A stretch of 64,000 nt of DNA, from assembly GCF_014643455.1 (NCBI RefSeq), contig NZ_BMJM01000001.1:176123-240122 (forward strand), read 5' to 3'. Below are positions 13,331 through 14,065 of the stretch, one piece after another. Numbering within the stretch: the stretch's first letter is position 1; each line of letters begins with the position of its first letter. The notes under the pieces are model-generated. The model saw only the letters and a list, made by a program, of their open reading frames with translations, ran no database searches and was not told the origin of the DNA. Made by a program: the position numbers and the translations under genes. The DNA comes from Sandarakinorhabdus glacialis (lineage in GTDB: Bacteria > Pseudomonadota > Alphaproteobacteria > Sphingomonadales > Sphingomonadaceae).

Positions 13331-13412
13331 GGCAGCGCCTCTTGCTGAAAATGCAAAATCCGCACTGCAAGAACTGCAGCGCGGCGGAAAGTGAAATAAC
13401 TTTCATAGGCAT

Positions 13413-13467
13413 GTGACAACGTCGGCTCAAGCGCCGTCTTGTCACGTCCGGGATGTTAGCCTATTTT
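13413..13467 (+). promoter_or_regulatory. Promoter and inverted repeat before the Cys-rich protein locus
   Basis: TTGTCA (13439-13444), 17 bases, then TATTTT (13462-13467) is a good promoter pair. GTGACAA (13413-13419) and TTGTCAC (13439-13445) form an inverted repeat reaching into the -35. Transcription would start at about 13474, immediately before GTG 13475, so the first gene may be leaderless. The region is less GC-rich than its surroundings. The sequence is seen; the regulatory role is inferred. Confidence 0.45.
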
Positions 13468-13474
13468 TCGAACC

Positions 13475-13792
13475 GTGAGATGTATTTTCAGCCTTGCACG
13501 TGCCATTGTCGTGGTTTCGTTAATCATCATCGGAACTTCGGGGCCCGCTATGGCTTGTCCTCCTGCCGCAGCGACATCCATGGCCAATATGAAGGGGGTT
13601 GGCCACCACCCGGCGGGTGGGGCGATGGCGTGCAAACAGGTTTGCCTTGCGTGTCTTGTATTGCCCGATCTCATGCCGGTTTCGGTAGTTATCGTTTGGG
13701 CTGCGCCGGCGGCATATTCCGCCCTTGCGCAAGCCTTGCTAAACGGTTCAGTGGCACCGGAATTGCCGCCGCCGCGAATTGCAATGGATTGA
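13475..13792 (+). CDS. Small exported Cys/His-containing protein, unknown function
   Basis: A 105-residue protein has a clear signal peptide or membrane anchor (about residues 8-27, cleavage near AMA-C). A mature N-terminal part is rich in Met, His and Cys (CPPAAATSMANMKGVGHHP, then MACKQVCLACLV). A second hydrophobic segment (PVSVVIVWAAPAAYSALAQ) and a Pro-rich end (ELPPPRIAMD) follow. I do not recognise the family. The His/Met/Cys composition and the PPPR-type tail recall small membrane proteins linked to copper handling, but this is only an impression. Start GTG 13475 lies just after the predicted promoter; an overlapping frame from 13453 lacks a signal peptide and was not chosen. It is probably co-transcribed with the Cys-pair peptide 36 bases downstream. 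Confidence 0.55.
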   Translation: MRCIFSLARAIVVVSLIIIGTSGPAMACPPAAATSMANMKGVGHHPAGGAMACKQVCLACLVLPDLMPVSVVIVWAAPAAYSALAQALLNGSVAPELPPPRIAMD

Positions 13793-13828
13793 ATCTTGTT
13801 CATCTACTCAATTTGCGAGACACTTAAA

Positions 13829-13975
13829 ATGAAAAAGTTGATTATTGCGGCTAGCGTCACGTTGTTCGCCTCGACATCTGCACTTGCGACCAATCCGTCG
13901 GTCGTCGCGAAGGCAGCCAGCGCGTGCTGCACCATTGCAGCGGCGTGCTGTGAAGCGGTGATGGGTTGCTGCTAA
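13829..13975 (+). CDS. 48-residue exported peptide with three Cys-Cys pairs
   Basis: ATG 13829 starts a typical signal peptide (MKKLIIAASVTLFASTSALA). The mature part of about 28 residues begins TNPSVVAKAA and ends in CC-x5-CC-x5-CC, the last pair being the C-terminus. The Cys pairs recur at exactly seven residues, which would line them on one face of a helix. A strong terminator lies 25 bases downstream, and the upstream neighbour is another exported Cys-containing protein. No family is recognised; metal (for example copper) binding or a disulfide-stabilised peptide are possibilities. Its codons are ordinary and the open frame is exactly delimited, which supports a real gene despite its size. 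Confidence 0.7.
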   Translation: MKKLIIAASVTLFASTSALATNPSVVAKAASACCTIAAACCEAVMGCC

Positions 13976-13999
13976 ACGCCTGATTGCGGGATGACAAGG

Positions 14000-14031
14000 A
14001 CGCCGGCGGCCATTTAGTCGCCGGCGTTTTC
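14000..14031 (+). terminator. Rho-independent terminator after the Cys-pair peptide gene
   Basis: ACGCCGGCG (14000-14008) pairs perfectly with CGCCGGCGT (14019-14027), followed by TTTTC. It closes the small two-gene unit and separates it from recG, 35 bases on. Confidence 0.75.
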
Positions 14032-14065
14032 GTATGGGTGGGCTGCGTGCTAAACGCTTTGCGCA

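Follow-up and report, generated by a model that had tools for sequence, protein, structure and literature searches.

Results

A two-gene unit between sdhE and recG

Between sdhE and recG, the window (the whole 64,000-nucleotide stretch of Sandarakinorhabdus glacialis DNA analysed here) carries two small open reading frames (ORFs) in the same orientation. The downstream ORF, at 13829-13975 on the + strand, encodes a 48-residue peptide, MKKLIIAASVTLFASTSALATNPSVVAKAASACCTIAAACCEAVMGCC, whose N terminus was judged by eye to be a signal peptide ending in ALA and is followed by a short stretch and a C-terminal CC-x5-CC-x5-CC. This pattern occurred once in the six-frame translation of the window and in none of 20 mononucleotide shuffles. 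The upstream ORF, at 13475-13792 (+), starts with GTG and ends 36 nt before the peptide start. It encodes a companion protein of 105 residues with a hydrophobic N terminus ending in GPAMA-C that resembles a signal peptide by eye, a CKQVCLAC motif (CxxxC plus CxxC, at 13631-13654, with CKQVC as residues 53-57), a linker of 37 residues and then PPPR (13766-13777) within the C terminus ELPPPRIAMD. The PPP begins eight residues from the end and 38 residues after the last Cys. An earlier note on this DNA had described an exported six-Cys peptide together with a second exported Cys/His/Met protein, and both are found here as described, with the signal peptides judged by eye. In another frame, a 124-codon ORF at 13453-13827 (+) overlaps the companion and stops 1 nt short of the peptide start; it shows no sign of export and is unlikely to be a gene.

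The site itself was compared across the genus. A recG match was obtained in 20 of 24 genomes, that of the window included, and sdhE adjoins recG in all 20. The gap between the two genes is 735 nt in the window versus 64-112 nt in the 19 other genomes (11 gaps derived from coordinates and eight computed by script, of which that of L215 was corrected from 581 to 97, its locus beginning at the end of a contig), and none of these 19 relatives has an insert at this position. The stretch 13386-14040 has a GC content of 55.3%, compared to 65.6% for the window. Given the length of the gap and the low GC content, the two-gene unit is best read as an acquired low-GC insert between sdhE and recG, which agrees with the insertion that the earlier note had proposed.

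The same note had placed a dedicated promoter before the unit and a terminator of its own behind it, and each of these was only partly borne out. A consensus scan gave one sigma-70-like match, TTGTCA-17-TATTTT at 13439-13467, where 0.4 would be expected in shuffles, but it leaves almost no leader before the GTG and is therefore weak evidence for a dedicated promoter. Its -35 hexamer is overlapped by an imperfect dyad read from the sequence, GTGACAA...TTGTCAC at 13413-13445 (+), which is a possible operator. Upstream of the window unit there was no perfect dyad with arms of at least 7 and a gap of at most 9, and no operator common to the upstream regions of the units was found. Perfect dyads of the form CTTGCAC-G/C-GTGCAAG, which we take to be possible MerR-family operators, occur at L193:965-979 and 1772-1786, on both sides of the unit, and at L194:1023-1037; this dyad is not present in the window. 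Behind the peptide gene, folding revealed a GC-rich hairpin followed by TTTT at 14000-14030 (+), which looks like a terminator and closes the two-gene unit before recG, but its run of T is only four long and the consensus scan did not report it. The 90 nt from the peptide stop codon on fold at -38.1 kcal/mol.

A family of small cysteine peptides

The earlier note had suggested searching related genomes for the peptide. In the window's family, a single-peptide search followed by an alignment search gave accepted peptides in 13 of 397 genomes. Eleven of these matched at E 1.6e-6 or better, and two, G297 and G361, are shorter or degenerate forms added on inspection. The 13 were accepted out of 28 genomes matched at E 0.01, with 15 dropped before counting; the two dropped matches that were inspected, L044 and L046, lie inside another gene. 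Within the genus, three of 24 genomes were accepted out of seven matched. The class sample gave two of 385 genomes (three matched), namely that of the window and G554 of a third family, and the phylum sample gave three of 398 (10 matched); the dropped class and phylum matches cover only model positions 1-35. A second alphaproteobacterial family had accepted peptides in 28 of 214 genomes, with 30 of 31 places inspected. When the genome collection was scanned with a DNA pattern, at least one clear member (L163) was found among the 118 stretches listed. On plasmids, three of 72,556 records carried the peptide, one from Sphingopyxis sp. FD7 and two from Blastomonas sp. RAC04, and further plasmid searches gave no match. 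One of the three records lists no gene at the peptide, its gene table being incomplete, and two-gene units of this kind are easily overlooked.

The three CC pairs are largely conserved in the alignments across the family, while the spacing between them varies and the third pair is lost or extended in some members. One variant group has CCCC and a His-rich tail, and the members of another contain a total of eleven Cys and terminate in HGGH. The exact seven-residue spacing between Cys pairs, emphasised in the earlier note, thus holds for the window peptide but not for the family, and it is the CC pairs rather than the heptad that are constrained. That note had also named a lack of the Cys pattern at the same locus in related genomes as evidence against its claim. 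Read literally, that lack is what we see, since the site is empty in the relatives, but only because the unit was inserted at this place and occupies different sites in the other genomes that carry it, where the CC pairs are largely kept. In most close pairs of peptide genes, synonymous changes outnumbered non-synonymous ones: 13:5 for L061/L062, 13:6 for L061/L201, 8:2 for L063/L163, 16:8 for L193/L194 and 21:6 for L064/L065. The exceptions were L061/L202 at 12:11, the weakest case, and L062/L201 at 1:1. The retention of the CC pairs in homologues and the predominance of synonymous codon changes together indicate that the peptide is more than a chance ORF.

A second short exported Cys peptide was seen near the six-Cys peptide at L063:7947-8150 (+), at L067:9078-9266 (-) and in L163 from 6709 on the reverse strand. 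It is of the type CCCCKK...MACCKDK...GHDMGGMDHK or CCKDCCKDK...HQDHK and is similar to the CCCC-His variants seen in the second bacterial family.

Neither Pfam nor NCBIfam gave an accepted match to the peptide family, and the PDB gave none either, in line with the earlier note, which knew of no family with this signature. Pfam gave nothing for the peptide, NCBIfam gave only matches far below the cut-off that were confined to the signal-peptide region, and a profile built from 25 family members found nothing in the PDB at E 0.1. The metallothionein families were likewise without a match to the peptide in Pfam, in NCBIfam (far below the cut-off) and in the PDB by profile. The predicted structure has helices at 3-18 and 23-45, but with a mean pLDDT of 61 it was too weak to support an arrangement of all Cys on one face and was set aside for that purpose.

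The companion and its spacing

A companion lies directly upstream of the peptide in 41 of 51 distinct loci, a total in which the degenerate short forms L069 and L073 are counted, and is lacking in the other 10. By group, it accompanies 12 of 19 peptides in the window's family, 28 of 30 in the second family and the single one in the third (G554), and is absent from L163 (0 of 1). Companions were chosen by position and by a PP motif, never by Cys spacing, with a script for the second-family loci and by eye for the earlier ones, for some of which at least two Cys were also asked. In L063, L066 and L163, which have no companion, a DUF411-like gene (MHRDPGCGCC, named by eye) lies directly upstream of the peptide instead.

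A terminal PP motif is present in 40 of the 41 companions (L074 ends in PTP) and PPPR in 35. In 35 of the 40 PP-ending companions, including that of the window, the terminal PP lies at a distance of 36-39 residues from the last Cys, with a mode of 38 (20 cases). As a control, 25 of 622 mechanically called ORFs of 60-170 residues with a terminal PP and a Cys showed a distance of 36-39. The five outliers are L062 and L201 (both 46), L317 (31), L305 (51) and L264 (43). In L062 and L201 the later Cys residues of the motif, one of them at 38, are replaced by Phe while PPPP stays and the register is held, and L317 has a CxxxC at 38 although its last Cys is at 31. L305 has an apparent frameshift: just before position 1501 its companion end seems to have lost one base in the proline codons relative to its relatives, and with it the in-frame PPPR end. 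The linkers of the 35 companions within the range, with the five outliers left out, fell into 22 groups whose representatives share a mean identity of 11.7%, compared to 8.2% after shuffling. By these measures, the linker is constrained in length and hardly in sequence.

The window companion had no match in Pfam or NCBIfam, and the DUF2946 profile (PF11162) in particular did not match it. Against seven other companions this profile gave two matches at E 0.018 and 0.036, below the cut-off, and when the first 12 companions were compared with 21 DUF2946 proteins by hhalign, the probability was 1.7. In the same 21 fetched proteins, the distance from the last Cys to PP is 46-50 in 16 and 52, 43 and 23 in three others, with two giving no value, so that the DUF2946 spacing is longer than the 38 residues of the window companion. 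Membership of DUF2946 by sequence was rejected on the absence of a profile match, the hhalign probability and the shorter distance.

We also examined whether the Shine-Dalgarno sequence of the peptide gene is hidden by folding. At 12 companion loci, hiding did not exceed that of 90 other gene starts (median paired 0.47 versus 0.66, p 0.91). Across all 41 loci, compared to dinucleotide-shuffled upstream sequences (60 shuffles each), the mean percentile of hiding was 0.70 with a KS p of 8e-7, a value that is optimistic since the loci are related to one another. The region upstream of the peptide start folds more stably than its shuffles (mean z -1.22). For folding as for hiding, the second family gave the most extreme values. 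In the window, the Shine-Dalgarno of the peptide is weak and not hidden (percentile 0.22).

Metal resistance genes near the peptide loci

Metal resistance genes, named by profile or by record annotation, were found within 10 kb of nine peptide loci. The multicopper oxidase TIGR01480 (NCBIfam) is near L063, L064, L065 and L327, the last of which also has CopC, CopD and a copper ATPase. A CusA/CzcA is found at L066, and the plasmid annotations name CusA/CzcA pumps, DUF411 and a multicopper oxidase at L202 and an RND pump with a copper-binding protein at L201. Two of the nine loci belong to the window's own genus: L266, with CueR, CopD, a copper ATPase and a CusA/CzcA-like pump below the cut-off, and L265, with an arsenite pump and a CueR-like regulator below the cut-off. 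No metal gene was noticed by eye beside the unit in the window, where the nearest genes are sdhE, recG and an mfd-like gene, or in the neighbourhoods of L264 and L326. Among 16 features around L200, none bears the name of a metal gene, and two neighbour proteins of L062 gave no match when searched with profiles. The neighbourhoods of L067-L074 were judged from N termini only. These surroundings suggest that the metal served by the unit would be copper or similar.

Discussion

One system that the companion resembles is CutF of Rhodobacter capsulatus, encoded in cutFOG. CutF, too, is a small exported leader that contains CxxxC, has a C terminus rich in proline and is followed immediately by a regulated copper gene. 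It acts in cis on this gene when copper is present and requires both its CxxxC and its proline motif, and a stem-loop hides the Shine-Dalgarno of the downstream gene (PMC9973294). The CutF protein itself is reported not to be detectable. The rules for CutF-like proteins given there are a length below 150 residues, PP within the 15 C-terminal residues, a signal peptide and a downstream gene on the same strand within 1000 nt (PMC9973294). CxxxC was a rule of the earlier CutF-like list and is also present in CutF. With 105 residues, PPP eight residues from the end, a gap of 36 nt and CxxxC in the form of CKQVC, the window companion is in keeping with these rules, and its N terminus resembles a signal peptide by eye. 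It differs in spacing, as 45 residues lie between the motifs of CutF (PMC9973294) compared to 38 from the last Cys to PP in the companion. The downstream gene is also different, a multicopper oxidase for CutF and a 48-residue Cys peptide here. A stem-loop of the CutF type is not established in the window, since the 12 loci were not more hidden than the 90 other gene starts.

CruR of Bordetella pertussis, a DUF2946 protein, also keeps a constant distance between its Cys motif and a proline arrest motif at the C terminus and heads an operon, but the next gene there encodes a TonB-dependent transporter. In more than 2000 sequences, the length of 45 residues between CXXC and RAPP varies by no more than one or two, and the copper effect is much weaker when five residues are added (PMC9426467). 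Since the companion has the features of a CutF-like protein, is not a DUF2946 protein by sequence and has a shorter distance between its motifs, we regard it as a CutF/CruR-like leader with a spacing class of its own. The earlier note was right that the second exported protein forms one unit with the peptide, but the protein is better read as such a leader than as a second effector.

The downstream peptide can be compared with two known kinds of small Cys-rich proteins. The bufferins Buf1 and Buf2 are Sec-exported Cys peptides that protect against copper; they differ from the window peptide in being encoded in operons with an MNIO enzyme and a partner protein. Bacterial metallothioneins are small, Cys-rich and generally cytosolic. 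The window peptide shares the first two properties and probably soft-metal binding with them, and differs by its signal peptide (judged by eye) and its three CC pairs. We noticed no description of a downstream peptide of this kind in the CutF study (PMC9973294), and the terms 'metallothionein', 'small cysteine' and 'hypothetical' are absent from its main text, although some companions may figure in its supplementary list. The titles and abstracts found in literature searches showed nothing on such a peptide.

What is seen directly are the two ORFs and the order that they keep across loci, the fixed spacing, the insertion and the metal resistance neighbourhoods in relatives. The reading that we prefer and consider fairly probable is that the unit would be a metal-stress device of two genes, brought into this site from elsewhere, in which a metal-sensing leader of the CutF/CruR kind controls a peptide that chelates copper in the periplasm. 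On this proposal, the first gene (13475-13792) would be translated into a short exported leader, and copper or a similar soft metal would bind its Cys motif in the nascent chain, 38 residues before PPPR. Binding would alter ribosome pausing at PPPR, as in CutF and CruR, and the altered pausing would adjust the expression of the peptide gene 36 nt downstream. The product of that gene would be a periplasmic peptide of about 28 residues whose three vicinal Cys pairs may bind and buffer Cu(I) or another soft metal. Among the functions suggested in the earlier note, a metal-chelating role appears the most plausible, given the metal resistance genes at the nine homologue loci and the extra Cys/His tails of some variants.

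A different division of labour, in which the companion and the peptide are both periplasmic metal binders from an ordinary metal-induced operon and the companion is an effector or chaperone, strikes us as rather unlikely. Both proteins look exported and are Cys-rich, the homologues have metal resistance genes around them, and the CTTGCAC-G-GTGCAAG dyads that precede two units of the same genus might reflect an ordinary control of transcription. However, a linker that keeps its length and hardly its sequence would be odd in a folded effector. PPPR near the end of 35 of 41 companions argues in the same direction, as do L062 and L201, where later Cys residues of the motif are replaced and PPPP and the register are nevertheless kept.

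The other two readings concern the peptide. Vicinal Cys pairs would suit a thiol-redox or disulfide peptide guarding against oxidants instead of metals, and genes that fit such a role lie beside some of the loci: methionine sulfoxide reductase-like genes (by eye) at L068, and glutaredoxin-like fusions (by eye) at L063, L064 and L065, that of L063 without an NCBIfam match at 1e-20. We nonetheless consider this quite improbable in view of the metal resistance context of nine loci and the His-rich extensions of several peptide variants. The earlier note had also raised a precursor of a modified peptide, and the Sec signal peptide and six Cys do bring to mind the Buf2 bufferins, 90% of which have six conserved Cys (PMC12452194). 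A search of the window genome for PF05114 (DUF692) at E 0.001 was negative, and nine of 15 peptide-bearing genomes have a match. Modification by an MNIO enzyme is thus unlikely, as no gene for a DUF692 enzyme was found in this genome. The peptide itself lacks a Pfam match, and in the window it is followed by a terminator-like hairpin and not by a third gene. We have rejected an MNIO-type RiPP for the window, and a bufferin-like modified metallophore is the least credible of the explanations discussed here, with only a very slight chance of being correct.

In conclusion, we favour the reading of a metal-sensing leader with a copper-chelating peptide. The unit is best called a known sensor logic in which the length of the spacing and the minimal effector family are new. 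A broader claim may hold or fail with about equal probability, namely that the companions form a new class of metal-sensing arrest leaders with a fixed 38-residue ruler of their own and serve specifically, and often solely, to control minimal copper-binding peptides of the periplasm, a new family with three CC pairs, the two genes moving together among Alphaproteobacteria as a mobile cassette. A length that is conserved with hardly any conservation of sequence makes the geometry of the sensor directly testable, at 38 residues compared to about 48 in DUF2946 by the same measure. Our findings link a tiny unclassified peptide family to what would be a metal sensor acting at the level of translation, and the peptide could be among the smallest exported copper buffers. 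Since the peptide gene in most cases directly follows that of a small protein resembling a metal-sensing switch of translation, the pair is probably a self-regulated device with which these bacteria mop up excess copper.
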